NCBI GenBank assembly: GCA_034687125.1
Contig: JAQGBZ010000022.1
Location: forward strand, 124,001 to 188,000
DNA: 64,000 nt
Reading direction: 5' to 3'
Source of the DNA: Neelides folsomi
Lineage: Eukaryota; Arthropoda; Collembola; Neelipleona; Neelidae
This document shows, one piece after another, positions 6,801 through 37,500 of the stretch. The position numbers were made by a program, and so were the translations under genes. Below the pieces are notes generated by a model, which saw only the letters and a program-made list of their open reading frames with translations, had not been told where the DNA came from and did not search any database. Position 1 is the stretch's first letter, and the number at the start of each line of letters is the position of its first letter.

Positions 6801-7785
6801 CTCAAAGGACCCTTTTTGACGGCGGACATGTGAATGCCGTGGTCGCAGGATGGGGCTTGACCAAAGAAGGTGACAAACTCCCACTACAAAATCCCTTCGT
6901 GCTCGCTCGATAAGGCGGACCTCCCCGTGTCCGGTCCATTTATACGAACCTTCTTTGTTTTCTACAGGAGGAGTCCCTTCGAGTAAGATGTTGAAGGCGG
7001 AAGTTCAGATTTTTAATGAGAGTCTATGCAGAGAATTTTACCACAATGGGCGAGACTTGATTACGGACCGAATGATTTGTGCCGGACATCAAACTGAAAT
7101 GATTGACTCCTGTGTTGTACGCCTTCCACTTATGATCATTTGAACCCTTTCACATTTAGGGATAACCTCTCACAAAAAATGTACCGTTCATTTCAGGGAG
7201 ACTCAGGCGGAGGACTCATTGTTAACCTCGGAGATCGTAATGTGTTGGCAGGTATTGTTTCATGGGGCAGAGGTTGCGGACGGCAAAACCTCCCAGGTGT
7301 CTACACGAAGATTTCAGGTACAGTATGATCTTGAGTTTGGACCTATGTATATTATTAAATCTTATATAAATACAAGCAATAAATGAATATATCTGTAATA
7401 AAAAGGTGCTTATTGATTATATTAAGTATGGATAGCATAGAATTTATAGATATTAGTATTATGTAGGATATGTATCTCTTGTTGAAAATCATTGTTTAAA
7501 TTATGTATTTATGTATAAGGTAGCAATATCATTATGATTCCTCTCTATAATTTGTTACAATGTGAGACAATGGTATTTTGCCTCCTGGTGTTATTTGTTT
7601 GTTTTGAGAGCTTCAGATCCGTATGTTATTATCGAGGTCCACGAGGCGATGAGCGTGGCTGAATGGGAGAGAAGTGAAATACGGAATGTCAGACTTCATC
7701 CTTTTCCTTTACAGGGCTCAATGAGTGGATTGTAGAGAAGAGCAACGAGGGAACGTGGTGCATGGGAAGCTCACGAGAAGTTTAA
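864..7785 (+). CDS. CUB-domain trypsin-like serine protease 1
   Basis: Secreted S1 endopeptidase with an N-terminal CUB domain. Exons: 864-911, 995-1202, 1732-1907, 4007-4119, 4233-4378, 5014-5172, 5550-5721, 6416-6653, 6755-6869, 6968-7116, 7197-7317, 7715-7785; phases agree throughout and give 571 aa. Residues 1-17 form a signal peptide. A Thr/Pro-rich segment follows, then a CUB domain (about 86-226) spread over three exons with the Cys pattern [30 protein letters not shown]. After a second Thr-rich linker comes the protease: cleavage site GR|IVGG (about 294), His in TAAHC (about 337), Asp in DYDIALL (about 395), Ser in GDSGG (about 511). Asp189 in DSCVGDSGG predicts cleavage after Arg/Lys. 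The CUB part probably stays attached through the chymotrypsin C1-C122 disulfide. Uncertain point: the end of exon 6416-6653. Using the good GTAAAC donor adds about 9 residues before the VPICLP motif; a weak alternative donor at 6627 would remove them. Substrate is unknown; digestive or immune roles are both possible. Confidence 0.85.
1908..4006 (+). other. Long intron of protease 1
   Basis: A 2.1-kb intron lies between the first and second CUB exons. No further in-frame exon is needed: the flanking exons join in phase 0 and the CUB Cys spacing is complete. A perfect 11-bp inverted repeat with a 5-nt loop is at 2294-2320; otherwise nothing beyond AT-rich sequence was seen. Confidence 0.6.
5923..6106. 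mobile_element. pogo/Tigger-like MITE in protease 1 intron
   Basis: A 184-bp non-coding element in the intron between the His and Asp exons. It is flanked by TA on both sides (5921-5922 and 6107-6108). Terminal inverted repeats of about 22 bp start CAGTGGAATCC at the left and, read inward, CAGCGAAATCC at the right. The word TTCATTATA recurs inside. TA duplication plus CAGT-type ends match the Tc1/mariner-pogo group, so it was probably mobilised in trans by a pogo-like transposase. It does not disturb the splice sites. Confidence 0.75.
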
Positions 7786-7975
7786 CACCGCAGAATCATT
7801 GTTTGTTTAACCCAGGAAGTCCCACTTTCTTATCGGGATTTTAGGTATACCAAGAGGAATCAACGTGTTGCTACAGATGGTCAACTTTCTTTTGATACTT
7901 TATTTCTTATCTAGCTTTGTGATACACAAAAGGATTTAAAGAATCAAGCACTATGTCGTAATTGGATTGTTCTTG

Positions 7976-7981
7976 AATAAA
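7976..7981 (+). terminator. Poly(A) signal of protease 1
   Basis: AATAAA about 190 bp after the protease 1 stop codon, followed by a T/G-rich stretch (ATTTTGTTGTAG). Position and context fit a cleavage and polyadenylation signal. Confidence 0.55.
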
Positions 7982-8432
7982 ATATTTTGTTGTAGACGCT
8001 ATTTTTTCCAATTGATCTAATGGGAATTGGGTAATTTAATCGCAATTCATTTAATCTCATTGAAAAAATATACGAAACTGGGAAATTGTACTACTAAACT
8101 TATCTATTGAATGTTGAATCTTATCAAATGTTTTTTATATAAAAATAGGAACAACTGAACAATTAATCGTTATTATAAATCTCTCAGACTTTTTTGTGGG
8201 CAATTAGTTGCGAGAAACTCCGGGAAATTGAGAGACTTCTGAGAGTCAAAGTTAATTACTTTGTCATTTATTTTACTATTACTACACTTTAATCTATCTT
8301 CAAAGGCTGAAAGATAAATAAAAGATCTGAACCATTTTAGAGAACTTCATTTCTCTTACTTTGATTTCCGTTTATAAGTAATAGCCTTCGCAATTAATAT
8401 TTAATAAGTAATCTTCCTATACGCATCACAGA

Positions 8433-8438
8433 TATAAA
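8433..8438 (+). promoter_or_regulatory. TATA box of protease 2
   Basis: TATAAA lies 75 bp before the protease 2 start codon. A start site about 30 bp downstream would leave a short 5' UTR of about 45 nt, as in the other genes of the array. Confidence 0.5.
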
Positions 8439-8507
8439 TTCTTTATTAGTTGTTAGACGCAAAATCATTTTGAGAAGTCGCTGCAAATAATAGCAAAGCC
8501 GTTAAAG

Positions 8508-11494
<2,987 letters not shown>

Positions 11495-12957
11495 GGCTGA
11501 CTGAACCGATAAACCAATAATGCAATAATTTAAATCCATTTATAGATAAAAACATAGGTATAATGAATACAAATACAGTTGAATTAAACTGACATCAGCC
11601 CAGTAGTAGTATTATTAAATTATAAATACCCAAATCAAATTGTCCAATCTCTACTTTAAGTTTTTAAGAGTGAGCAAAATGCATAAAAATATTTACTACA
11701 ATGTACATGGATATACAAAATACTTATAGTAAATGCATTGTGAGCTCTTAAGAATTCGAAAATATAAAACCTTAAGGCGATGAAAATTTAATAAATATTT
11801 TCCAAACTAAACCTCAGAGCAGACGAATCTCTGCTTATAAAGCAGTATATTAAAAAATTTTAGGTCGAACATCTTTTCAAATTCTTTCGAGCGAGCATTC
11901 ATGCAAGAGAAATTATATATCCATTGTTAAGATACTTTTGATTTTGAGGGAATATGTATGTAATGTATAGTATAAGTATTTACATATAGGAAATGAACAT
12001 TCAAAGTTTGATTCAAGAATTTAATTAATTTGTTAACTGAAAAGATTGAATAGCATTAGCATAATGTTAGGCCAAACATAGATGCATTTATTTATATAAG
12101 TTTAATGGCATGTATTACCATTTATGTATTAATTTATATTTATAAATATCTAATAACGTCTTTATGCGTTTTTATGTATAATTTTAAACTTAAAGATTAA
12201 AAACCCATTTTCATTTATAAGTAATTAAATTGTTAAAATTGAAGAGAACATTTATTTTTATTATTTATTTGCATGTTTATGAAATTTTATTCCAAAATAA
12301 ACAAAATAGCCATCTAAGAAATAAAGCATATACCAATTAGTTTTACTCATAGCCCCTAGATGTCAGGTAATAAAGTGCTATAATGCCCCAATTTATTAAC
12401 TCCATTCCAATTAATCAAATTAATCATGAATAAAATAATTATATATTTATTCTTATACCTTAGTAAATTATAAGTGCGACAATATAATAGATACATATTT
12501 TAATGTCCATACCAATATATTAGCTGTCATATTGCTACTTTGCCCATGCAAAAAAGGTCATTAGCCTACTTAAAGTTGGAATATTGACTCTTAATACATT
12601 CAAAACTGAAGAATAAAAATGGCTCCATGAAGGAAATAAATGAATGGGGTGTCATTTTGTCAATTGTTTAGAGAATTTGGTTCACTTGAGCCATTGACTT
12701 TCAATGAGATCCGAATGAACAAACCTATGTTTGCATATGCACGCCAAAAGAGGCATCTGCGATTCTCAACAATAGAATATTTCTAATTTAATAAACGAAT
12801 CCTAAAAACAAGTGAATATTCATAATAAACTACCAGAAGAATGGCGGTTTAGAAAGAGGAAAATTTGATCACCAAAATAATTCCAATTTTTTGAAATTAT
12901 AATTTTAAAAGAGCCATTCCCTTCATTTAGGTCTTTGTTTACAAACGGAAAGTGAAG
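11495..12957. other. AT-rich intergenic spacer between proteases 2 and 3
   Basis: About 1.46 kb of AT-rich DNA without a supported exon. TTTTAAAAG at about 12903 lies some 55 bp before the protease 3 start codon and could act as a weak TATA element. Confidence 0.5.
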
Positions 12958-15792
12958 ATGGGGAATTCAAAGAGGAAATATTTCTATTCAGTGCTACTGT
13001 TCCTCCTATTCATTGACTTCCCATCATCTAATTCATTTGGTCTAATGAACAGCTATTCAAATGTAAAGTTCCCAATTTACTAATAACTAATTAATTTAAT
13101 TTTAAAAATCATTATTAAATAATAATTATAAATTTTATCAGGCATTTAATCCTGGGAATCCTTTTATATACGAAGTTCCTCCCGTTGTTCAATTTGTCCT
13201 CAACATGGGGCTCAATAAAACCAAAACAATTTTAAATAACGTTTATGGATTTGAACCTCAATTTACTATTCAGGACAATAACTACTTATATGGTAAATAA
13301 AGAATATTTGAAGTTTTTTAAATTGTTAACTTTAACTTTTAACAAGTCTATTAAATATGAAAAAATTATAGCAAAATATTGCGGAGTTCATTTTATCAAC
13401 CCAGGAGAGGGGTATATAGTGACGGACAAAATGTTTGGAGAATCCTTCGGCCCTGTTCGATGCACAATCAGCTTCGTGGTGAATTTACCATATAAATAGG
13501 AAACGGCCAATTTGAACCAGAGAATGATGGAGATTTCCAATTAGGAATTTGTAGATAATTTACATTCTCAGATATTTAGTTTCTATTTAATAGGGAAGTC
13601 AATTTTGTACGCCGAGTGCCGACTGTCCCAAGTTCCGAGATCGGGGAAAGAAGGCCAACTGTCGATCAAACTACTTGCAAATTACAGATGCTGGAGAAAG
13701 TTTCCTTCTACAGTACGGTTCCTAATGAGGAGTCAAATGAATATTCATAAGGGTAGAAGGTTTGTTAATTCCTCCACAATTACTCTTTTCAGTTCCTGCA
13801 ACTCCACGAGGAGTGCAATCAAGACGAGAGAGTTTACCTCAGTCAGCGGACTCCTCGATCTCACCTATAGATACTCAAACAAGTTCTTCAAGCCCGAGTT
13901 TGAGTGCCGAGTTAAATGCGTTCCATATAAAGGTTAGCATAACTTTAGCCAGAACTTTGAGCCCAACTCGGCAAAAGGCTTTATTATCAGCATTATAATT
14001 AATAAGTCCTTTTCAAAACAACTTCCAAGTTTCAAATTTTAATAAATTCCTAATCAAAACTTTCCAGTTCAATTTGAAATTAAAAAGTCTGAGCGGAACA
14101 TGACAGAAGTGAAGGTTCTACTAGCAGAGCGACCTCAAAACCTAGAAAAAAATTTACCAAAGACGAAATATCTTCCAAAATGCAGTAAGTTTATAAACTA
14201 ATAAAAAGGAATTAACGTATTTAATAGGATGATATTCTAATAATAAAGTATGATATTTAACTAAACTAAAGTATTTATACTTACATTATGTAATTTTGCA
14301 ACGACATTGCCATTAATGGTTTATAAATTTGCAGAATGTGGAATTTCACCAAATGAAACCATCGTCAAAAAGAAAGAAGGAAGAATTCTCGGAGGGAAAG
14401 AAACGAAAGTTCATCAATATCCGTGGATGGTTGGGATTATTAACAAAGAAAGGGCGAGCACGAGCAATAATAGCAGATTACCTTTTTGTGGTGGGAGTCT
14501 CATTAACGATAGATATGTCCTCACTGCTGCTCATTGCCTTCTCGAGTACGTATTCATTTTTTGGCTCGCTATTTTAGCAATACTAATTAGTGGAAAAAAT
14601 CTATTCATTGAATACAAATAGATAGGTATTTGAAAAAGAACCTTCTTACAATTTATTATAAAAGTTATTTCAAAAGTATTAATTAAAATTTAAGTATCAC
14701 TCCAAATGTTCAAATTCTCATGTATGGGATCAATGGGACGTCATACACATACCCATACACATAATATGTATAATATATTATATATTTGGTGCATCACCAA
14801 TACACGTGATGGATGAAGATAAAATTGAATAGGTTGGAAAATCAGTGTGATTTCACGGATTCCAGGATGTTCGTGCTTGCATAACCGCAGTACAATTAGA
14901 TTCATTTTGAAAGATTCCCTTGTTCGTGGTTCTGAGCCTACTTCAACTCTCGAGTCTTCCAATTAGTTTTACTAATATACGGCCTCTTCCGATGTACTTA
15001 ATAAAAGGTCGTAAATTATAGTGAAGAGACTCGTGACTTGGTAGTCGTCCTTCGCGAACATGATTTCTTCAACGAGAGCGAAACAGACGGACCTGCCATT
15101 CGCGTCGACATCACGGAAATCATCCCTTATCATTATTATTTGGACAACACGTTCTATGGAGACTTGGCTTTGCTTCGTCTCGCCAAGCCGGTCGACATCA
15201 CAGATCCAAACTTAACCCCCATTTGTCTTCCTCATAACATGGAGGAAGATTTCGTTGGCGTGGAGGCCGTCGCAGCCGGTTGGGGCACCACCAAAGATGG
15301 CGGGGATAAAAGTCGGGTTTTAAGGGACGTCGTTCTGAAGATCATGGGCAATCCAGCGTGCAACGATTATCATTATTCAACCCCACCAGAACCGCTTCAA
15401 GTGACGGATAACATGCTCTGTGCTGGATATTCACAAGGAGGAAAAGATACTTGTTCAGTAATTGATTTTGTTTTAAACTTCCGTTTTAACACCTTAACTA
15501 TGATTTTAATTGGGAACTGTTAATGATAGGGAGATAGTGGAGGTTGGTTGGCGATTGTGAATAAAGGACGCTATACACAAATTGGAGTTACTTCGTGGGG
15601 ATATGGTTGTGGGATGCGGCTGAACCCTGGAGTTTTTGCTAGAGTCACAGGTATAAATATAAATCATAGCGTAGAATATATGAGATTCAAAAAGACATCC
15701 CAGATGATTCCATTAAAATATTTTCCTTTTCATCTCTAGCTTTTCTTTACTGGATTCGGATGAATACACTCGATGCCCACTGGTGTTCCTGA
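12958..15792 (+). CDS. CUB-domain trypsin-like serine protease 3
   Basis: Secreted S1 protease. Exons: 12958-13062, 13142-13292, 13372-13478, 13594-13712, 13793-13932, 14068-14184, 14335-14545, 15022-15457, 15530-15650, 15740-15792; phases agree, 519 aa. Signal peptide about 1-26, then an N-terminal segment without known fold. The CUB domain (about 88-208) runs from KYCGVHF through VRCTISF, NCRSNYLQITD and FECRVKCV. A basic linker leads to KKKEGR|ILGG (cleavage after Arg263). Triad: His313 (TAAHC), Asp364 (YGDLALL), Ser465 (GDSGG). DTCS gives Asp189 and SWGYGC with PGVF keeps the S1 pocket open. The donor at 13713 (GTACGG) is inferred because it is the one that keeps the CUB frame. Unlike its neighbours, the Asp exon is long (436 nt) and fused with the following segment, so one intron found in genes 1, 2, 4 and 5 is absent here. 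Confidence 0.86.
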
Positions 15793-16757
15793 AAATTTAA
15801 AACTTGGTGAAAAAGTTTGAACATCGTCATCCTTTTTTAATTAAATGAACATCAAAGACAAATCTTTTGCGTTCATTTGAAATTAAAATTTTCATAAACA
15901 ATTTCATATGATTTTTATTTATCTTGTGTAACTGATATTGTTATTATAATTATATATAATATGCTCTGTATAATGATTTGTAACAGTATAGCCCCATATC
16001 TTATGTTTTTATTTTTTACTGTTTTACTTGATTCAAAGCTTCAATCCCTTTGAGTAGTTTGAGAACTCATAATATTATTCTTCAAAAAGAACTTTTTATT
16101 AAACTTGTTCAAAAACAGTATACTTTATGGTACCTCTCCTGCTTCCTAATTTTACTTAATGTTAGAGTATAGATACATAATCATTCTAATTTTAGCAATA
16201 GAGCTATTACGCTATTACATGTAATAATAATTATTTTTATTTACTATAATTTTAATTAATTTTAACAATAACAATTAGTATAAGTACATTAGTTATGTAA
16301 AATGTTAAAAGAATATGTATCTACATTCTATACAAATATTTAAAGATTTTAGAAATCGGTAATTTCCTATTTTTCTACAAAGTGTTTAAAACATTGAAAA
16401 AGTGAACTAAATAATATATAAAAATAAAAATACATTAGGTGATTACAGATATATGTTACAATTATATTTATGTATATTATTATAATTAATAATGACCCCA
16501 GATGTACCAAGTTGGTTATAAATAAAATATACATATCAACATTTCGGCATTTCTTATAGTATTCTAATAATGCTTGTGATTTACGAGTATAGTATAAATA
16601 ATTTACGATGTCACCATATGCCATGTACATTTTCTAATGTTAACTATTTTGGAAAGAACTACCTAATATAAGTTTAGTACAAAATATATAAATACATATT
16701 ACTGTGTATGAATGATAGGTAAAAGCTTAAGTATAGGATTGGCCCAAAAGAGAAGTT
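15793..16757. other. AT-rich intergenic spacer between proteases 3 and 4
   Basis: About 1 kb of very AT-rich DNA with runs of alternating A/T. No exon or repeat boundary was recognised. Confidence 0.5.
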
Positions 16758-16781
16758 GGGAATCCTCTTATGGAAATCCCC
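16758..16781 (+). promoter_or_regulatory. Pair of NF-kappaB/Rel-like words upstream of protease 4
   Basis: GGGAATCCTC at 16758-16767 and GGAAATCCCC at 16772-16781 are close to the Rel consensus GGGRNYYYCC. They lie about 300 bp before the TATA box of protease 4. Two such words 4 bp apart in otherwise AT-rich DNA are suggestive only; binding is not shown. Confidence 0.3.
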
Positions 16782-17070
16782 CTTTCATTAATGAGAGCCG
16801 TCAAAGAAGCGTTAAATGAACAAATTTCTGAGAAGCAGAGATATGGAGTTCCCTGTCACTTCACATATGATGATGCTGTGCATTCACCTCATTGTTACCT
16901 GTCTCATTGTCTCCTTGTAAAGTGGAGTACATCTGGGGATGAAGCGTGCTTTCTCCGGAACATCATTGTGGCTCATCAGTGACCTCCATCCACAACGAGA
17001 CTTGGATTCTCATTACAAATCCATCGTCCAGACAAATCCAATCTGTGAACAAAGGAGGAATGCCGATATA

Positions 17071-17078
17071 TATAAAAG
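17071..17078 (+). promoter_or_regulatory. TATA box of protease 4
   Basis: TATAAAAG, within a longer TATATATAAAAG, lies 51 bp before the protease 4 start codon. The consensus is perfect and the distance leaves a 5' UTR of about 20 nt. Confidence 0.75.
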
Positions 17079-17121
17079 CTGGTTCGTAGCCTTGATTTTA
17101 AAATAACGGGATATTAAAAAT

Positions 17122-20100
17122 ATGGCATTTCGTCGAATGTGGCAAACTGGGAAAAGTTGTAAATGTGAACCGGCTGCTATTCAGTTATTTGTTGTATTTC
17201 TCTTATTTTATACTCCTGTGTTTTCAAAAACTACTGAACAGGTAAAACAATAAAACAAAAAATTTTTAACAATTTTAATGAAGGCAATTTTGAAACCATT
17301 TTAAAATTGTCAAAATTTTGATTGAAACACGTAAAGGTATATGGGGTATATCAAACTATAAAATTTAAAACCTTAGTTAAAATTATAAATAAAACTAAAA
17401 GTTTATTTTTTGATTCCGACTTTAATTTTTTAACTTAATTATTGTTCATTTTCGTGCATATCTAAAGATAATTGTATCATTATAGGAGCAATTTTTCCCA
17501 GACGATGACTCGGAATGGAGGGAAGAACGTTTACCAAATAAAAGTATTGACCATCAAATTGAATTAACTCTCCCATTACTATCCACTACATTTCACGTTT
17601 TCAACTAACTATCAAGTTTAAATTGAGTTTAACTTTAATAATTATTTATTTATTATACATGAACGTCTTTTGAGAATTTAGCTTATATTTCAATTTATTG
17701 GCAAATCATACACCAAAACCCCGTGAATATTGTATCTGTGAACTGTAAAGGAAATTGAACGAATCATTTGAAAATGAGTTTCTTTTATATTAAAGAATAT
17801 AAATAATAATCCCCATTCAACTGATCTTAAATAGAAAATGAAAAGGAGTTGAACCTTATTAAATTTTATTACGCAGCAAGAGAATATTGAATTTTCCATG
17901 AATTGAAATTGAAGAATTTTTAAATCTCAACTTTTCATCTTTTCACTGTATGACTAGTGGATTGGATTAAAGTCCTCTTTCCGACATGGAAAAGATGAAT
18001 AAATTTACTTGTAGTCATGTAGGAAGTTTGATAAGAATAGTTTTCCTTGAGGGAAAATACTTGAAAGCGGGTCGGAAGAAGAATGCCCAGAAATTCCTCC
18101 TTCTTCCCATCGGGGAAATGGAGAAAGTGATGGAATTTGACTTTTGATGGTATTTGGAGGGACAATAAAGCCTATCGGTGTATATAATAAATAATACATG
18201 GATCATCTGTGTATATTATCAAATAAGAATTGATTTTCCAGTTCTGCCTTGCGGGTCTGATGTGACTTTGGAGCTTAATGAAACTTTCACAATTGAAAGT
18301 CCAAATTTCTCTGACCGGACCAACTACCCAAACTCATTAAGATGCAAATGGCGTTTTCTTGTTCGTTCCCTTTTCACATTTATTTTTATTCTTTTCAATT
18401 TTTATTTATTTTCCTTCTATCTTTATTGTCCATATCCCATTAAATTTTGGTCTGAAGAATATTTCAGTTTAACAGTTGCTCACTCTCCATCTCCTGCCCT
18501 AACTTCCGGCTCAATGATTTCTTATGCTTCGATTATCTTGAAGTTCGGGACAAGCGAGGCGGCACAACGAGGTATGTGAAGGAAATATCTTGGCAAAAAT
18601 GCAATGCTTTCTTCAAATCTCATGTTGCTGACGGATGAGAGAAAGTGCGAATGACAGATGTTTATATAAAAAAGGGACAGGTTCTGTGGGACAAAAGGGC
18701 CGAAAAATCTGGTCGTCAGAGGGAATGAAGCCCAAGTGACATTCCGAACGAGCCCATTTTTCAATGCACTCGGATTCAGGTGCAATGTTGTTTGCGTTGA
18801 TGATGGAGGATCAGGTATTGTACATACAATTATTAGTAATTAGTCAATTAGTAATTATGTCTTTGTTACTCAAAATTCATGACAATCCAACTACAAGTTA
18901 ACTATTAAAATTAAATATTATTCTATATATATTTTAATTTTTAAATTTATATTTAAACAGCAGTAAATGTTGATTCAGAAATTTTACCACCGACTGTAAC
19001 AGCTAAGCCCAAAGATTGTAGTAAGTTTTAGTTAACTATTTGTAATTTAACAAATATGGGAATGGGAAATTATAATGGGAATACGGAATTCGCTCATTAA
19101 TTAAGGCCAATTCAAGGTTGCGGTTGGAGCAATGAAACTTTGAAAATTGTGAACGGGACGGAAACAAGAGTTGGAGAATTCCCATGGATGGTGGGTTTGG
19201 TACGGAAAGGGTCGAGAACGCCTTTCTGTGGAGGATCTCTCATTTCAAGTCTCCACGTTCTTACTGCAGCTCATTGTGTTAGCGGGTAACGTCACAATAT
19301 ATATTTATAGTGTACTAACATTAAGTACTCTATATTATGGTTATGGTAGATATATTTATTAACATTTTTCATTAATTACAATTTAAACAATTTTTATTTA
19401 CTAAAGTCGAACGCCATTCAATCTCGAGCTCCTCATCAGCGAGCACAACATTAAAATTGAGGAAGAGACTAACGTGTTAAGACAGCAGGTTGAGTTGATT
19501 CTCCAACACCGGAGCTACAACTCAAGGCTCGACTATGATGCTGCCATTATCAAAATGCGCTCTCCGGTCGACATTACCAAAATCAGTCCAGTTTGTATGC
19601 CCAAAGTGGAAGAGTCGTTTGAAGGAGCAAAGGCGACCGTGTCGGGCTGGGGAACCATTCAAGAAGGCATTTACACTCACATAGTTCAGAAAATCCCTAT
19701 GACTCTTATTCCTAAACAAAACTTTCTCCGTCTCTTTCGTACTCTTACACTTTAAGTCTCAACGTGATGGTAATTGTGCAATGTTTTATTTAAAATGGAA
19801 TATTTCATAAATATTTAGACGGATCATTGTCACCTTACTTGAGGAAAGTTGAAGTGAACGTGATGGAGTTCGAGCAGTGTCGGAAAGCATACGGAGACAT
19901 GATAACGGACAGGATGTTGTGTGCAGCAGCTCCTTATAAAGATTCATGTCAAGGGGACTCAGGAGGGTAAAGTTGATTAAAATCAAAATTATATTTAATT
20001 AATTTCCTTGCATTTCAAGCCCTCTCATGTTCGGCGAGAGAAATCCTGAAGAACCGAGTTACATCAAATATAGACAAATAGGAGTCGTTTCTTGGGGCCA

Positions 20101-22201: not shown

Positions 22202-25200
22202 TTAGACGCATCCATGCTTCATCTTATATTCAATAAATCTTGGAAGATTCGATTTTGACGTTACAATCACAGCCTTATGTTCACCAAATTCTTTACGATG
22301 CATCTGACACTATTAAATAATTAAATATAAAACTAATTTAAAATTTTATTATATCTGTAATTTAGTAGAAATGATAGATAATATTTATAATAGTGTTATA
22401 ATAATATTAAATAATTATATATTGTAAATTGTAATGAGAGTAATTGACTATTATTTCTTACGGCTTTTTTGTATTGAGTTTGAAAATTCTTTAATTTTTC
22501 AATCAGCCTCAGTTGAGTCAAGACATGGTTGAATTCGTCATCAGAAAAAACGTCAAAAAGGGTATCTAAAATTTCTGCCTTCACCCATAGGTGTTCCTTA
22601 TCCAATGGCCCAGCAAGTGATGTAATAAGAAATTTCGCAACTTCTGATAAAAGTGGAGCAGCATCTCCTTTTGAATTAACTCCGAATCGGAAAATAGAAA
22701 CTCCCAAACCTCCAATGATCTTGACTACATTAGCTTGAATTTTTGGAACTTGAACTCCTTCATAAACTTCAAGAAATACCTAAAAATGAAAAAATGGTAT
22801 TAATACTTAATGCAATTTTTAATACAATAAATAAATTGATAATACTGAATATGATCTAGAATCATATGAAATAAAAATGTTAAATTTAAAAATTTACATT
22901 AAATTCGGACGGTGACATTGATTTGACGTAATCGTCACACTTAAAATCAATCCATTTTTGCATTATGGCTCGTAAGGCAGAGGAAGAAGCTTCAATAAGA
23001 TCAATATCTCGATCTAAATAAATAACAGATTAAAATTAATAATAGAAATTTAACTTAAATAAAATGAATTAACTATTTTTCATATTATAATATAGAATTC
23101 TTTAAATCTTCCACACACCTTCGCTAATGAGAAGATTTCCCAAAGAATCCCAAAGCTTCTTCGTATTTTCAAATCCTCCCAATTGCTCAAAATTTAAAAC
23201 GCTAATAAGATTTTGAAGGCAAAGAAGTGAAGTTCCACGAAGTTGTGTTAATGTGGCCAAAATCTTCATTCCGTATTCGTTTTCTTTTAAAATCTCAGTT
23301 ACATTAACTGGAGGCACTTGAAGCTTAGCCCAAATTTTTTCACTAAAATTTCCATCGACTATGGCTTGTTGAAGCTATAATGAAATAATCCAATATTACT
23401 TATAAAAATTTCACCAATTGATTATTTATCAAATATAAACAGCTATTATTAAATATAAAGTTAAAATTTTTTATACCTCTTGATTTGTATCAGACTCAAA
23501 TGTTTCCATATTCATTTCATCGTCATTTAAATATTCTGGATCTTCCCCACTTTCCGATTCCGACTCTTCTTCCCCATCCTCTTCGCAAAAAATTCCATTT
23601 GAAATGATTTGAAGTGCCAATGAAGTTGCGCTGAGCGCTCGTGAAAGTCTTTCAAAAGAATTAACCAAACTTTCATGACCAGAATCTTCCACTTCCATCT
23701 CAAGCTTGGCTTTTTCCTTATGGTTTGATTCTTTAGAAACTCCGTTGGTTTTTGATTCCTTCCTTTTGCTAATTGGTGAAGGGGGGGAGAGTGGAACTTC
23801 AGATGAAAATTTGTTAACATCCTTCATATAGTCAAAATCAAGAATATTTGATAAGATTGAAATTGAAGCTCCAAGACGATCAGGCGTAAAAGTCGAAATA
23901 TTTCCTTTATTTAAGTTGATCATAATTCCTACAAAAAATCCATGAAAATTTACTTTTAAAAATAAGGTTATATTAATAAACGAATTACTTTATTTTTTTA
24001 GAATAAATAACTTGTCATCATTTTTGTTCACATACCTAAGCATTGCGTCTGAAAAAATAGAAAATCTCTTTCTTTTTGTGGTAATTCGATACTTTCGATT
24101 TGTCTGCTTAATATTCCATCTAGCCTTGCTGTAAGATCAGTTTCAATTTTCAAACCTTTATCATTATCTTCAGTTACTGTGATTAAGCATTCAGCTATAA
24201 CAAAAAATGTTTAAAATATAGAATAACATTATTTAATTTTAAGTAGTAAAAATTTAATTGGAAAGTATTTTTATATGATGAGCTTACCAACTGGAAACAC
24301 AACTCTTATTCCATAAGTATCGAAATCCAAATGGGAAGCTAAAAATCCAAGAAGTCCTTCCCTATTGAATACATTTACACCCGTTCTGCTATTCTCACTA
24401 GAAAAAAACATTTAAAAGGCAAGATTAAACATTAATATAAACAACAATGATCGTTAATAAAATATATGATAACAATAACATAAGCAAATGACTAATTATT
24501 TTCAATGAATTAAAAATGACTAAACAATTAGTAGATTAGTACATTGGCCCAATTTAATGCGTCGTATTTCCTCAAAAACAAAAAATTCCAAGATGCATGT
24601 CGTAAAAAGAGATAAAAATATAACGTTTAACAATGAGATGACTAAAGGTGCGAATGATTCAAATTTCTCATGATAAAAAATGAGGTTAATGACAAAGACG
24701 AAATGGGTGAAAGTAGGTGAAGCTAATTTGATAATTAATACAATACTTTGAATCAGAATCCTTGGAACTTTTTCCTCTTATCTGATCAACTAATGGTATT
24801 TTGTTCTACGACGAAAAAATTATTTTAAGTATATATACATAGATGAAAAATGAGTAAAATTATCAGAGAAAGAATTCCTAAGTTTTCAATTAGATTTTTA
24901 ACTTGATTGCTAAAGATGACGAAACTCTTGCAAATTGTAAGTTTATTCACAAATCAAAACGAATCGGATCTTTGATTTATCTTTATAAATAGATTACTAG
25001 TTTTCTTGCTAGAATTTGACTAATTGTAATTGTAACTTAACTTATACATTTTAGATTTTTGTCCTGTGCGTGGTTTTGGTTGCCTCAATGGCGATACCAT
25101 TTCCGATTTTCGAAGATTATGACAGCCCAAGGTAAATTAAATATGGGCATATAAAATTTCATATCCAATATCCAATTATGTAATATGAAAATATTATGTA

Positions 25201-26341
25201 CTAATATTTTGTAATTTGTATAGGGAGGCTAGAATTTGGGCTCCCTGGACATATGCATCACCAGCATCAAGAGGCCGATTTAATGGATAAGTTTTAACTT
25301 GTTGTTAATCAGAATTTCAATAACCTAGTCAATCCTAACTTTCCTAGTCAATGTACATCAACACAGTCTAGTCATGTTTTTACAGTCTCGAATTTCTAAT
25401 TAGGATATATATTTTTGAAACAAACTTCATTGTAAAGTGTAGACGTAACACTGAATAAAAAATCTTTTAAATAAATATAAAAATGTATTAATTTCATACC
25501 ACAAGTTCCAGAGTAGATTTACAGATTCGATAAATGTTTCCGTATGGGTGTCAATTTTATCTTCCATTTGAGCTTTTGGTGTCCATGATTTACAATATTC
25601 CTAAAATCAAAAAATACTTATAAAAATGATTCATTAACTAACAAAAACGTTAGAATGAATATCTTTGACTTGATAAATAATGATAGAAATATTAGGATAA
25701 TTAATCTTTCAAAAAACTTCCATTCTATCATAGTTTTACTATTTGTATTTTGGTAAATTGAAAATAATGAAAATACAAATAACCTGTTTGAAGAGTGAAA
25801 CAAGAGGAGTTAAGACATCTTGAGAAATCATATGCTCACAGATCGTTGGTCCACTTGCGCTCATATTTCTACAAAGCATAATAATTTTATTATTTAAAGA
25901 TACGAAAAATATTGTTGTTTGATTTTAAAATATAACTCACCTAAGAGCACCAGCAGCTGAGTGTCTCACCATAGGACTTTTGTCAACCAAAAGTTGTCCT
26001 GCAACCTTGACCCCATCTTGAGCTAAAATCTTAATGAGGAACCCTTCATCTTGAGCAGCAACTGATAGAGAATTCAATCCACTGTCCCTCTCTTCGGCAA
26101 TGTGGCTTTGCATCTATAAAGAAATTTTTTTATTAATAAAAATGCATAGTAAAAATTTAAATAAAAAATTTAAATTTTATTTTGACAATTTTCATACCTG
26201 TTCCAGCATGTTGTCAATAAAAATATCCCTAGGACTCTTGTCACCCATTTCTTCTTCGGCTTCGGTCAAAGACGCAACGCTATCGAGAAGAATTGGATTA
26301 TTACGAGACGCTCCATTCTTTTTTCCTTTGATCTTCCCCAT
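22202..26341 (-). CDS. HEATR3: HEAT repeat-containing protein 3 (SYO1 homologue)
   Basis: Symportin-type adaptor. In the known family (Syo1 in yeast, HEATR3 in animals) it brings ribosomal proteins uL18 and uL5 into the nucleus for 5S RNP assembly. Exons, 5' to 3': 26341-26198, 26113-25941, 25868-25784, 25600-25500, 24397-24288, 24194-24036, 23928-23477, 23374-23119, 23013-22898, 22779-22462, 22303-22202; phases agree, 671 aa, close to the 680 aa of the human protein. The start GKIKGKKN resembles the family's basic N-terminus. Family-like segments are seen: VRHSAAGALRNMS, LTPLVSLFKQ, LLWNLCENS with NREG, LLCLQNLISVLN with EQLGG, and the ending near RFIEYK. A long acidic insert (GEEESESESGED with flanks, exon 23928-23477) matches the acidic loop of SYO1. 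Intron 24398-25499 contains a separate peptide gene on the + strand. Confidence 0.9.
24916..25290 (+). CDS. Nested small secreted peptide gene, family unknown
   Basis: Three exons, 24916-24936, 25055-25131 and 25224-25290, total exactly 165 nt and encode 54 aa. Donors are GTAAGT and GTAAAT; acceptors are TTTTAG and GTATAG. The gene lies wholly inside intron 4 of HEATR3, on the opposite strand. Residues 1-20 are a clear signal peptide (MTKLLQIIFVLCVVLVASMA). The mature part has about 33 residues without Cys: a proline/acidic start (PFPIFEDYDSP), a possible Arg site (PREAR), an aromatic segment IWAPWTY and the end SRGRFNG. A terminal Gly could be converted to an amide, as in neuropeptides; that is inference, and no dibasic site is present. 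TATATATA at about 24830 and AATAAA at 25454 fit a small transcription unit. It could also be an antimicrobial or cuticular peptide. I recognise no family. Confidence 0.75.
25454..25459 (+). terminator. Poly(A) signal of nested peptide gene
   Basis: AATAAA 164 bp after the peptide stop codon and 41 bp before the HEATR3 exon at 25500. The nested transcript can therefore end within the intron. Confidence 0.55.
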
Positions 26342-26791: not shown

Positions 26792-29700
26792 TCATTTATT
26801 AATCTTTGTTGCCTTTTCTTGTTCCAAATCGGCATAAAGTTTCATTCCAAGCGGTAGAATTCTGTAATCCCGCTTTTCAGTTTTTGCTGTCCAAAGCGAA
26901 AGTAAACTTGTTTTTGTGTTAATTTCTTCTGAATCGGGATCATCTCTTGGTTTTTTCAAAGGAGGGGGCGACATTGGCGAGTCAGTCATTGGATTTGACA
27001 AGCTTGTAAAACATAACAACGTAATTAGTATTTTATAAAATATGTAATCTGTAGTTAAATTAAAGAATATATCAGAACTCTCATATTCAGAGAAGTAAAT
27101 GGAAATAAATCGATATTTCTCTTACTTTGCAACTTGTTTAGAGATCTCATATAAAATAGTTTCAGAAACCACATCTTTTCCTCTGAGCTTTTCTTCTTTT
27201 TTGATTGCGTCTTTGCTTGCATCTCTCTTACATTCTCTGAAACATTCCAAAATTTTCCGATGTTGCTCAGAATGCTGATTGGCTTCAATAAATGTCTCCA
27301 ATTCCATGTACACATTTCTCCATTGCTCATCTCTATTTTTTAAAGATTGGGAATCAATTTACTATTTATTTTATTTACACACGCTTCAAAATTGTGAATT
27401 ATTGAATAGAATACAATACTCAAAATTTATTTAAATCATATTTCACCTCTTATGCCCCTTTTTATGATGAGGTGAAGGAATCGGCGGAGGATCTCCCCTG
27501 GCTTCAATAGCCATTAAATTCCAAATTGTTTTATCGCAGTCATTTTTCTCCATATCAGTCATTTTATCATTTGGAAGTAATTTAAGAAGATTTTCAAGAT
27601 GCTGGAAAATGGTTCAATTTGTTGAAATTGAATAAACATTAAAATAGGAAAAATTCTTATAGTACTACTATTTATTTTATAAATTACATACCACGGCCAT
27701 GGGAAAAAGAAGTGAACCACTTATGGTCAGAGGCCAATATGCAGTTTTGGACTGAAGACGATTTTTAGCAAGTTCAATCGGCCTTTTCCAATCAGCAATA
27801 CTTTTTGTTTCTTCAAGACTACTTCTTCGACTCTGACTCTTTTCTCTTTTTGGCTTTACATGCGAATCTGGATATGGAGTCAACATGTTCAATTTCATGA
27901 AGTCGACAAAATCCTAATGAATGATTATATGAAATTAAAATAAAAATTTAAGCTTACAATTAGTTAGAGTGCCATTGAGAAACAACAATAACACGCCATA
28001 AAATCTTAAAAGTAAGGTAAAGTATTATCTTATTATATCATTTTTACTGGAATTCTGTAGTCTGTGACTCTGCCTCCAATTCCTTCAGAAATCGAGGGAG
28101 GATCTTCTAATATATTCCGAGCATTATAAATAATATGCATCCAAATCTCAGATCCATGGGCAGTCAAAACATGTGAAGTTGTTTTATCTTTAAATTAAAA
28201 CAGAAAAAAGTTTGGCTTAAAATCAAGTTGGATTACCACTTATTATTATTATTAAAGTATTTTGGGAATATACAGATACTTTTTTTGAGCATTTCTAGCC
28301 ACACGGATCTTCCATTAAGAACAAAATTGCTGAGACAAGTTGATGGACGGCTGATAAAAAATAAAACTTTATATCAAATTTAAATTTTATTAATACCTAT
28401 AGATTAGTTAGATTTTTTCATATGGTTATTACCTGTTAACTTCGACTGGTGTTATCCGACCTTACAAAAACAATATGAGTATTAGTTATTTAATTATTTA
28501 TAAAAAATTGTGAGACTGGCTTACATGCATTTATACAATGGTGAAGGGATCCGAGACCTGGACCTTTGGGAGTCGTGGGTGAAGACCATTTAAGAACCAT
28601 TGATTCTTTAGCTGTAATCAATATTTTAAAAATAAACGTAATGAAAGTTGAATACCTTTGAAATTAAAAGTAACAAAATAATAATGGAATAATGGATATA
28701 ATGTTACTTGAATTAGGAAGTCTTGGATGGAAAAGATTGACATCGTAATTGGAAGATGAAGTAGAATTCTGTTCTTCTTTCATTGGAATACCAGTAACGG
28801 TTGTGGTTACGAGATTATGATGCGAAATGCAGCTATATTATAATAGAAAAATTCAATTCATTATAAATTAAAATTCAATTTGTTACTGCTGTGTTATTTG
28901 TTATTTAAACTTACAGATCCATTAATTTACGATATAAGAAGTCTGCAGTTAAAACAATTGTCTCGGATCTTACTGTAGGAGATATCTACAAAGAAATTAT
29001 TTAAGAAATTAATTTTTTAATTAAAATTTATAAGTATAATAAATTACATCGTGAAGAGGCTTCGGTAAAACTCGTGCTAAATGATCTTTCCCAATAGGGT
29101 GAACGGAAATTATCACCAATTCCAATTCATGGATATGAATACTGTAAGATTAATAAAAGTGAAATTAATAAATAGAATCCAATATAAATTATCTTTACTT
29201 TTTTGAAGAGGTTGATCGATTCTGCTCCGATAAACAGTCGAGAAACATTTCTTCTAAATCTTGATCGACAATACTTGATGTAATACAAATGATTCTCCCT
29301 TTATTTCGGACCTAGTAAATAAACATTTGGTTTACTTTTGTCTTGTTTAATCTAAATATTTTACATTTAGTCGTATTTGTAATGAATAAATATTTGTAAT
29401 TAATATTTAATACTTTTGATAAAGAATTGAGTTGTGAAGGCGAAGGCTCAGATAAAGCTTCAACAGCAGCTTTAATTCCTATTTGAATTGATCCGTGAGA
29501 TTTTGCAGGAGGTCCAGTCATTGAAAAAGCTTCACATATCTTAAATAAAGAATAAAAATGATTATTATTCTCAGAGGCAAAATATTAAACAAATTGATTC
29601 ATTAATTTATATGTTAACATTTAATTATTACAAAGCTCATGTTTTGCTGGTTAGGATGCCAATTATTTAGAGAGTCATGAACTTGCGGATTGGAGATAAT

Positions 29701-29940
29701 AAATCGAATAGGCCTTTCTTCAGAAAATATGTCCCATGTAACTCTTGCATATTCAAGAGTGTTTTCAACAATCGTCGGCCAAAGAGGTTTTACTACTGGT
29801 GGTACATAACAATACCCGGGCATTTGTTGTTGTAACCGGGTTCTTCCACTTGACTCAATCTCCAATTGAATGCCGCTACTCTCCCTCATCACCAAACAGT
29901 GATCGAGTAAAAACACTGTTTTATGATATAGTTCACACAT
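26792..29940 (-). CDS. INTS13: Integrator complex subunit 13 (asunder homologue)
   Basis: Nuclear subunit of the Integrator complex, which cleaves snRNA and paused mRNA transcripts; the fly orthologue asunder also affects dynein localisation in spermatogenesis. Exons, 5' to 3': 29940-29632, 29539-29414, 29311-29199, 29141-29048, 28985-28915, 28832-28708, 28611-28525, 28460-28433, 28350-28280, 28187-28048, 27913-27692, 27601-27447, 27332-27126, 27002-26792; phases agree, 652 aa against 706 in human. Family segments: [10 protein letters not shown] at the N-terminus (VWA-like part), [18 protein letters not shown] with [32 protein letters not shown] with [21 protein letters not shown], and the C-terminal LLSLWTAK motif. 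A basic stretch [12 protein letters not shown] may be a nuclear signal. Exon 28460-28433 is a 28-nt microexon. Confidence 0.92.
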
Positions 29941-31180
29941 GGTGAATAATTAGGTAATTAGGATCAATTGATAAATAATAAACTTTAACAAACTATCTTA
30001 TTGTTAGTTTCAACTTTCAATGTTTCAATCGAAAAGACCAAAAGGCAAACAAAATGAAAATAGTTGATTTCGAATAAATCCCAAGATTCGCAACTTGTAG
30101 GGAGATATTAAATGCCATTCACAATTTTCACGCATTAAACGTTTCAGATTCTTTCACATCAACAATAATCATGAATTTTAGTAAATTATCGTTAACTTTA
30201 AGTTTATTAAGTTTCAAAATCTTTGATGAAGCCTTAATTTCATTAATAGTTTTCATCCCATATTGGTTGGAAAATTCTTATTTAAAGTCTTTCATTCCTA
30301 CTATTTAATTCGATGAAAACAAAGGCATTGTGAAGTAATGTGAAGCAGTTTCATTTCTGCCCAAAAAAGCAATAAAGATAATTCCAATGACTCGAGAACT
30401 CGAGATTCATTCATTCGAGTTCATGTAAGTTATGACACAATATCCTTGTTGATAAAAATGATCTCAAATTACATGCGCACAATTGAAATTATAAGACTTA
30501 TTACTAAATTACTTCAAATACAATACATAGTTATAATAATTATGTATTATAGCAAGTACTCATGGTTAGTTAATATGTTAATATGTAAGTAGTAATTACT
30601 TGCCATGTTATATATAAAATAATGCTTAAATTTCGCATATCGTGGGTGAGTAATAAATTGATGATCATTTCATGACTTATGATATTTTCAAAGAATCTAT
30701 AAACAGTGTAACCATTTTAACCAACAAGTAAATAATTGATAATCCTGAACTTTTCCCTTTGATGCGATAAGCACGAGATGAGGAATATGGGCAGGGATCC
30801 GCACTGATTACTACTTACGCGGGAAGGGATTCCGATGTGTGGAGCGCACAGGGTCAAGGGGTATTGATGGTTAAAGAGCATCACTAGAAACTATTTTACA
30901 AGTTAACTTTCGTCTGTAAATTCCAGAGGTTAATTAATTATTGAACAATTAAAATTCATTTTTTTACCTCTTGGTCCCCCAAGTTCATGGTTGAAAATCT
31001 TATGTTAAATCCCGTCTGATTTTTGACAAAATGAATCATGATTTTATATGGTTAACATACACACATTAAGAAGAATACCTAATAATTATATATAAACTTG
31101 GAATTTATTTCCAATTTACAAAATAGTTTTTACCTTATTATTATCAATATAACTCATTGCCAAAATGACGTTAAATATTA
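29941..31180. other. Intergenic region upstream of INTS13
   Basis: About 1.2 kb. The proximal part should hold the INTS13 promoter. A more GC-rich patch at about 30770-30880 stands out from the AT-rich surroundings but has no recognised content. No exon was seen. Confidence 0.5.
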
Positions 31181-34577: not shown

Positions 34578-37500
34578 TCATTTCTGCTGTAGCATGTCGG
34601 GGCTCAGCTGTGAGCCATTGGGTTCATCAGGGGTGCCAAGGGAGTCTTCGGTGGATGACGGGTCGTCTGGTCCTTCCCTTGACGCACCATTCCCTTCCAA
34701 GTCACGCCTCGGAGAACCGCCAGTCTCACTCTTTCTCCGTCCACTCCGCCCCGAGCAGCTCTCTAATTCCTCGTCAGAGTCGTCTGATCGATAAAAGAAC
34801 TTCTTCCGCCTCCTTCCCTTCTCTTCACAAAGTGAGGAAGCCCCAGACGGCCCGAGTCCTCCCAACGGCCCTCCAACATTCAGCCCTGTCATCCCACCAG
34901 CCATGCCAGCCAGGGAGAGGAACTTTGACTTCAAATCCCCTGTGATTCCGCTCTCTAAAATGGCTTTCTTCATCTCCTCATGGCTCACAAGGTGATTGTC
35001 GAGCTCGGCCCGGAAGAAAAACTTGAGATGACACAAATGGCAGTCGTAGGGCTTAGACTGAAGCCCGTGTTCGAGCATGTGTTGGTGCAAACCCGCAGCG
35101 GCTGTAAACACCGTTGAGCACATATAGCAAGTGAAGGAGGAACAGCCTTCGAACGTGTGCTCGATGAGATGACATTGTAATTTAAACGGAGATTCAAATG
35201 AGGATGAGCATAAACCGCATTCATGAGAACTTCCTTCCGTGAGGAGATGGGACGCGACGTGAGATTGAACTTCCGCTTCCGACCCGAAACTCATTTGACA
35301 TTTAATGCATTGGTACGTGCGAGGGTCGCTCCTATAATCTCGATCTTGTTCCATTCGTTCTTGGCGTTCGGATCGTTCAGGACGTTCTTCTTTGATAATC
35401 GACGCTAGTTTCCCCAATGGACTTGAATGAGCCGCACTGTAGCAATTGGAACATAAGTAAGTGGAGGAACTTCCAGTGATCAGTCCGTTCAAATAGAACT
35501 TTTTGTCTCCATCGTCATCTCGTAAACAAACGCAACATTGGGCTGGTGCTTTCCCATTCCGTTGGCCAGGAGAATCATATTGTTTCGTATGGAACCGTGC
35601 ATGGATTTGGACTTCAATGTCAGTAATGAGGGTTTGTCTGCATATGACGCAAGGTACGGGTGGGTTGCCAGGGCTCAAGTGCTGTTTAAGATGACTGTAG
35701 TAAGACTCCTCTGAAATGATGTTCTGCTTACACCCCGTGCAGACGCTCCCACTCACTACCTTGCAATGGGTGAGTTTATGCTCTGCCAAAAGCGTAGCGG
35801 TGGGACACACTTCGTCACAAATGTTACACTTGTGCTTCCCAGAAGCCACGATCTGATGACTTTTCATGTGATTCTCCAATTCTGAACGGCTCTTACAATT
35901 CTCACTGCAATATGCACAATGGAGACTCACCGATGACCCGCTCGATCCGCTTTTGAGTCCCGGAGCAGTTTGAATCGGCCCATTGCCCTTCATCCCGTCA
36001 CGGGAATTGGAAATGTGATGGACGGCCTTTCGATGAGACAAAAGATCCGACTCACTTGACAGGTACTTGTCACAAATATCGCATTTGAATTCATTCGCAG
36101 CCCTTTTCCGCTCTTTTCGCCCATGGTCGTTCTTCATCTTCGGCGGCGGAGATTTGGATTGGGAGCCGTTGAGAGCTGTGGAGTGTGCCGTCTGCATGTG
36201 TTTATCAAGGAGGAATTCAACATGGAAGGCCTCGTCACACATTTTACATCGGAATTGTTTCTGGTGGGTGCTGAGGTGGAACTGGAGGTCGAGTTCGGAT
36301 GGAAAGCTGGCACTGCAGAGAAGACATCGATATGGAGACACTTTTCGCAAATGGGCCATCTTCACATGGACCTAAAAGAGAACCCTTTTGTCAGTTTGAA
36401 CCCTTCAACTTCTCCGCTCATTAAGCCCCCATTCACACGCCCACGAGGAGATTCAGAAGGGAGACTGACGACTTGACATCTACCACTCGGCCTTTCTCAC
36501 TCCCACATTACTCCTTTTCATTCCAAGTCTCCCTTCGATTCCCCACTGTTTTTCTAACTCACCCTAACCATTTTTCACTACATCGACCTGTAACCCCTTC
36601 ACAACATCGACCCCTCACATCTGTTCTATCTTATTATAACTATATTTAATATACCGAGCAGAAAATATTAAACACCCCCCATTGAAAATCTACTAACTTT
36701 TTTCTAAATTTTAATTCTTATTTAATCACATTCCCAATTTTTTGCTCAAAATCCCCTTTGGAATAAAATCAAAAATGTTAACAAACCTGAAATTCAATTT
36801 CCGAACGGAATATGGTAGTGCAGGAGGTGCAGCGATAAAGTTTGCACTCGTTTGAATGCTTCACGGCAAAATGAACTTGGATAGACACCTTGGAATCGAA
36901 CATCTCTTTGCATAAGCTGCAACGGAAGAGGTGATGAGCGTGAATATCGATAAGGTGCTTCTGAAGTTCGTCCGGCTTGCAGAAGAGCTTGAGGCAACTT
37001 TGACATCCATATTCCGTAGTCGTGGCAAGGTAGTGACCAAGGGCATGAGCCTCAAGCTCCTCTTCCGATCCAAACTCGCTCTCGCAGTCGTCACAGGCAA
37101 ACTTTTGAACAACTTCTTCTAAATGGGATTTGAGGTGAGCTCGGAAGGATTCAAAATCAGAGAATCCCGCATTGCATTGATTACAAAGAAGACTGTGCTT
37201 TCGCTTTTCTTCTCCCTCATCTCGTCTTGAACGCTTTGAAGCTGGCTCTCCCTTCTTCTTGCTCAAATCCGTCGGTCTGACTTGAGGAGGCTCCGGAGAA
37301 CACACCTGTTGAACCAAACACTTTTAGCATACTTTATCAACAGTTTGCTATTAAAAAAACTTTCAATGCAGCTACGCAAGAGCTATTGTTTTACCAATTA
37401 TTTCAAATATTTTTCGTAAATAAGGATTTAATTGGTATACTTTTGTGGTAGTTAAATAAAATATAAAAGAAAAGGATCATTGAAAATGATCAAAAAATGC

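Follow-up and report, generated by a model that had tools for sequence, protein, structure and literature searches.

The question raised by a 64,000-nucleotide stretch of the genome of the collembolan Neelides folsomi (contig JAQGBZ010000022.1, positions 124,001 to 188,000 of the forward strand; hereafter the window, in whose own numbering positions are given) is whether one intron of its HEATR3/SYO1 gene, on the minus strand, contains a second, very small gene running in the opposite direction. The best explanation, to which we assign a probability of roughly 0.62, is that it does, i.e. that a single-copy, three-exon gene lies antisense in the HEATR3 intron and encodes a short secreted precursor. 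Exon-shaped G+C islands, shuffling controls, splice site quality and the outlying length of the intron all speak for a nested gene of this kind. The joint proposition that the gene is real and its product secreted is likely; that the product is an amidated signalling peptide or hormone is doubtful. The host intron and the proposed exons are as follows.

24398 to 25499, minus strand: host intron containing the candidate (1102 bases, GT...TAG), flanked by host exons 25500-25600 and 24288-24397
24916 to 24936, plus strand: exon 1, ATG and seven residues MTKLLQI; phase 0 donor GTAAGT; G+C 0.33
25055 to 25131, plus strand: exon 2, completing the signal peptide, with the likely cut behind ...ASMA, and continuing with IPFPIFEDYDSP; acceptor 6.2 bits, donor 7.6 bits
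25224 to 25290, plus strand: exon 3, REARIWAPWTYASPASRGRFNG followed by the stop codon TAA; TAG acceptor 4.0 bits

The identity of the host is clear from ten exons which, joined by hand, give 638 amino acids without a stop, residues 408-636 of which match Pfam TPR_SYO1 (2.9e-50); against PDB chains the host protein gave no match at E up to 0.001. The borders of the nesting intron (donor 6.5, acceptor 5.4 bits) come from a hand reading of splice sites and from the continuity of the host frame across it, rather than from a gene finder. A strict self-trained gene finder recovered eight of the ten host exons, seven of them exactly, giving one border as 24393 rather than 24397 and missing exons 25500-25600 and 24036-24194. 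The entire coding sequence (24916-25290, plus) falls within this one intron and opposite to the host. The antisense nesting in a single HEATR3 intron of about 1.1 kb that a first-pass annotation had described thus stands, on the TPR_SYO1 match and the continuous host frame. The intron is also the sole length outlier among the nine host introns measured, the other eight being of 84, 72, 183, 93, 107, 102, 105 and 118 bases.

Joined, the three exons give a frame of 54 residues plus stop (165 nt), encoding the precursor MTKLLQIIFVLCVVLVASMAIPFPIFEDYDSPREARIWAPWTYASPASRGRFNG. The donors (6.2 and 7.6 bits) and acceptors (6.2 and 4.0 bits) all lie within the range of nine HEATR3 exons scored alike (donors 3.4-11.2; acceptors, with the start-codon exon omitted, 2.1-9.8 bits), and both candidate acceptors are TAG, as are all nine in the host. 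The first-pass coordinates for three exons with good splice sites are therefore right. Its further argument from exact frame closure carries less, in that the frame does close but every one of the 16 AGs examined from 25170, including that of the candidate, meets a stop, so that closure is weak evidence. The acceptor chosen for exon 3, at 25224, is the first AG from 25170 onward. None of the nine acceptors examined across HEATR3 (22462-26341, minus) is CAG, and the uniform use of TAG is possibly a habit of the whole genome.

The N-terminus resembles a strong and probably cleavable signal peptide, with a core of mean hydropathy 3.31 over 12 residues and small residues at the predicted cleavage position, by a home-made score and not SignalP. 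Since this core is put together across the first splice junction and ends SMA|IPF, the straightforward reading is that about 34 residues would be secreted. The claim that cysteine is absent holds for the part after the signal peptide; the precursor itself has one, within the signal peptide. It is conceivable, though very improbable, that the exons belong to a spliced transcript from the HEATR3 locus which is non-coding or has an antisense regulatory role, the frame in it being incidental. The antisense position in a host intron and a moderate coding score would fit such a transcript, but not so the exact assembly of a signal peptide over the first splice junction, nor a G+C content in exons 2 and 3 like that of coding exons; moreover, the proposed exons and the AATAAA hexamers downstream of them are wholly intronic and overlap no host exon.

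Base composition sets exons 2 and 3 apart from their surroundings. The G+C content of exon 2 is 0.44, with 0.20 in either 40-base flank, and that of exon 3 is 0.48, with 0.15 and 0.28; host exons (0.32-0.46) stand out likewise from host introns (0.11-0.28). Exon 1, at 21 bases and 0.33, forms no island and does not stand out. Overall, exonic G+C is 0.44 against 0.25 elsewhere in the intron, a value that is equalled at 8 of 1102 positions when the exon mask is rotated round the intron. In the parts of the intron outside 24901-25300, none of 627 windows, each of 77 nt, has a G+C of at least 0.44.

Possible transcription signals flank the coding exons.

24830 to 24869, plus strand: possible core promoter, with TATATATA at 24830 and a TCAG initiator whose A is at 24865
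25454 to 25475, plus strand: two AATAAA hexamers (at 25454 and 25470), just before the host donor site

The TATA-like element TATATATA lies 35 nt upstream of the A (24865) in TATCAGAG, itself 51 bases before the ATG; in a test defined post hoc, a TATA-initiator pair spaced by 28-36 bases occurred in 50 of 5000 shuffles of the 518 upstream bases. Both kinds of element reported in the first-pass annotation are present, but AATAAA proves uninformative: the hexamers carry little weight because 2200 of 5000 shuffles hold one, which is not significant taken alone.

How readily might an intron of this composition yield such a chain without any gene? The rival explanation is that, in an AT-rich intron, T-rich stretches read as hydrophobic and GT/AG pairs happen to join a short frame. 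We regard this as unlikely, although it draws strength from the ease with which all AGs examined close a frame. It accounts poorly for the G+C islands at exons 2 and 3, the outlying intron length and the TATA-initiator pair, and also for the rarity of the signal core: when the intron was shuffled by dinucleotides, 4 of 4000 shuffles held a chain with a core as hydrophobic, and none of the 4000 also attained the coding score of the candidate. In these shuffles splice sites of at least 3.9 bits, about the weakest of the candidate, were admitted, and the accompanying filter of 'coding 2.1 bits or more' rests on a weaker coding model.

Several results, some of them the direct grounds for a chance chain, weigh against a gene. 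The cut-offs used in the shuffles were fixed at the candidate's own values, after the candidate had been chosen. The signal-peptide mark was also reached by 5 of 451 half-overlapping, same-size tiles of the real genome, of which four also pass the coding mark; since the listed tiles fall in three places, namely L013 and L021 (leucine-run starts) and L005 (which looks like a membrane protease), there are about three such places per 264 kb of genome examined. The strict gene finder, seeded with 41 unchecked long open reading frames (ORFs) after a first self-trained gene finder had over-predicted grossly and been discarded, made no call for the nested gene; its model gives the candidate -17.07, a score equalled or bettered by the best chain of every one of 1000 shuffles. 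This score says chiefly that the gene is too small for the strict model, because splice sites are heavily penalised there and tiny frames rewarded. When 30 of the long ORFs were checked later, six reached the Pfam cut-off and nine matched at E up to 0.001; the coding model was therefore rebuilt from nine Pfam-supported stretches (8870 nt). In the rebuilt model at order 1 the candidate scores 12.1 nats. For 48 left-out coding pieces the 25th percentile is close to this, at 11.9; for 32 noncoding pieces the 95th percentile, 8.0, lies below it. The contrast is flattered by the noncoding set, which was also the one scored and contains portions of this very intron. Against 180 unselected genomic pieces, some of which may be real exons, the same 12.1 nats do not reach the 95th percentile (13.9). 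Furthermore, the candidate's own phase is never the best of three (13.1/14.6/11.9, 12.1/14.6/12.5 and 7.4/6.0/15.8 at orders 0, 1 and 2, respectively), where the true phase is best in 35 of 48 known coding pieces of the same length. Lastly, no dibasic site (KR, RR, KK or RK) occurs among the 54 residues, and no relative was found in any collection searched, among which there was no other animal genome, proteome or transcriptome.

The unfavourable phase result arises mainly from exon 3 (4.4 vs 10.4 nats at order 1), the composition of which also favours another frame in the strict model (-1.56 vs +4.07 nats); in exon 2 the candidate's own frame is favoured or tied. It may be, though this is improbable, that the gene is real but uses a different frame or a different acceptor for exon 3, e.g. 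25228, giving ...SPRLEFGLPGHMHHQHQEADLMDKF, in which case no amidated peptide would be made. As well as by the composition of exon 3, this alternative is favoured by the coding score of the 25228 product (15.1 nats at order 1), whose own phase beats the other two at all of orders 0, 1 and 2, and by the gene finder, which chooses 25228 when run without a signal-peptide term; its best chain (-7.69), starting from an ATG inside exon 2, is reached by 32 of 1000 shuffles. Set against these is the site itself, a GAG of -0.27 bits where 25224 is a TAG of 3.97 bits and all nine host acceptors are TAG. The frame test is, moreover, a weak one, since it picks the true frame for only 89 out of 129 pieces of known coding DNA, each of 66 nt. 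For these two reasons the frame opened at 25224 is kept, and is preferred over the alternative by perhaps four to one. A CAG acceptor within the exon, at 25265 (plus), scores higher (5.57 bits) than the site at 25224; its use would yield a 38-residue product ending SPSIKRPI.

If the nested gene with exon 3 opening at 25224 is accepted, we infer its transcription and the secretion of its product, whereas what would follow outside the cell is speculative. The precursor would enter the secretory pathway and be cut by signal peptidase near SMA|IPF, leaving about 34 residues free of cysteine. A single RxxR site (REAR) stands ahead of IWAPWTYASPASRGRFNG, and a furin-like protease might cut at REAR|I. 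With exon 3 opening at 25224 a Gly directly precedes the stop, and could be converted to an Asn-amide; the 18-residue product (17 once amidated), IWAPWTYASPASRGRFN-amide, would then act outside the cell as a signal. With the 25228 acceptor there is no such Gly. A signalling role comes first among the guesses, given that there is one copy of the gene and that amidation of its product is possible. A still more specific idea, that the gene is the founding member of an unrecorded family of arthropod peptide hormones, cut at REAR|I, released as IWAPWTYASPASRGRFN-amide and perhaps timed by its housekeeping host, is distinctly improbable. Of the interpretation first offered, then, the nested antisense gene for a secreted peptide is supported; the amidated hormone fares less well, there being no dibasic site and the C-terminus depending on the exon 3 acceptor.

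A role as a linear defence peptide comes close to signalling in likelihood. Here the gene would again be real, but its product would be a secreted defence or surface-active peptide, antimicrobial or antioxidant and not a receptor ligand, in which an acidic pro-segment precedes a cationic C-terminal piece containing Trp and Arg. We consider this rather unlikely in itself. By simple reading of the sequence, the pro-part IPFPIFEDYDSPREAR has a charge of about -2 and the C-terminal IWAPWTYASPASRGRFNG, with two Trp, of about +2, and the mature peptide would be linear and free of cysteine, features that favour such a molecule. Yet the charge is small, the 34-mer is neutral overall, and there is no Pfam match. 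That the gene is single-copy also counts against a defence peptide, because such peptides often come in families.

The statement that the gene is single-copy comes from a search of the candidate's own genome (75.1 Mb, 840 contigs), where, both as protein and as DNA, it matches only itself. Pfam at E up to 10 gave no family for the 54-mer, the 34-mer or the 25228 variant, and PDB sequences, viral contigs and prokaryote genome contigs held no relative, no animal genome beyond its own being searched; these negatives therefore tell little about crustaceans. The first-pass view that the peptide belongs to no known family holds for all of these collections. A query with a decapod-type pigment-dispersing hormone found nothing, an empty result which, without a positive control, shows nothing.

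The wider window and genome offer further observations. Pfam Trypsin is matched in five open frames at 6357-19755 (plus; frames at 6357, 10600, 14265, 15005 and 19405), which suggests that the exons of trypsin-type serine proteases beyond HEATR3 form a tandem cluster. On the minus strand there is a Mat89Bb exon at 29617-29949 (Pfam 8.6e-21) and a large C2H2 zinc-finger gene at 34578-37323; at 34 kb of the window G+C climbs from 0.27 to 0.43. A contig of 15157 bases (G000:C742, L026) is mitochondrial, with COI, the invertebrate code and the order ND2-COI-COII, as in crustaceans and insects; the start of its short COI-COII gap reads by eye like trnL(UUR), and ARAGORN, at bacterial settings, reported no tRNA on the L026 stretch. 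Three matches to the insect odorant-receptor family 7tm_6 exceed its cut-off but are weak (best 8.0e-8), and are read as no insect co-receptor. Mitochondrial order and receptor matches were together taken to suggest a pancrustacean other than an insect.

Genes as short as this one, with small exons and lying antisense in introns, are easily overlooked by annotation, and the strict gene finder missed the candidate too. Its expression would give a small arthropod genome an orphan secreted peptide that may also be an orphan ligand, and would provide a test case for whether a housekeeping host and the peptide gene nested in it are transcribed together or to the exclusion of each other. If it is not expressed, it illustrates how convincingly AT-rich introns can produce exon chains by chance.

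Comparison with known peptides gives partial likenesses. A diverged corazonin can be ruled out: canonical corazonin has a separate gene, with the exact QTFQYSRGWTNG at G000:C11:4390-4424 (L025), the sole match genome-wide with up to two mismatches allowed, and the candidate does not carry the motif QTFQYSRGWTN directly after its signal peptide. By eye, SRGRFNG of the candidate shares five of seven positions with the corazonin end SRGWTNG, a resemblance which is probably accidental. The corazonin precursor is, like the proposed product, a small amidated arthropod peptide, but the candidate has neither the QTFQY start nor a GKR processing site. Among twelve substrings of the peptide, a full-text literature search returned matches for IWAPW alone: two papers, on waste enterprises and on what firefighters eat, which their titles show to be unrelated, and one on the frog-skin antioxidant peptide OA-GI13 (GIWAPWPPRAGLC; PMC11851847). 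Like the proposed product of the candidate, OA-GI13 is short, linear and secreted, and the shared IWAPW could be taken to favour a defence role; OA-GI13, however, is from a vertebrate, has 13 residues and includes a Cys, with nothing else alike. Given five residues only, common to a frog and an arthropod across such a distance, the likeness is probably an accident.

Abaecin-type linear Pro/Trp defence peptides resemble the candidate in their length of about 34 residues, absence of cysteine, and aromatic and proline residues; the candidate differs in being neutral overall, with few prolines and no Pfam match. Orphan single-copy secreted precursors of arthropods (neuropeptide-like) share with it a signal peptide, shortness, one RxxR site and, if exon 3 opens at 25224, a terminal Gly that could be amidated; unlike them, the candidate has no dibasic site, no repeated peptides and no relative in the collections searched. 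Within the collections searched, the sequence itself is an orphan. Its antisense nesting, by contrast, is of a known kind, since such genes are documented in Drosophila, where, according to one study, nested genes make up about 6% of genes and often run opposite to their hosts (PMC3786989). One of them, 2mit in timeless2, is an intronic nested antisense gene; the candidate differs from it in having HEATR3 as host and a 54-residue secreted precursor as its proposed product, and resembles it in being a protein gene enclosed entirely by an intron of a host that is unrelated to it and lies on the other strand.

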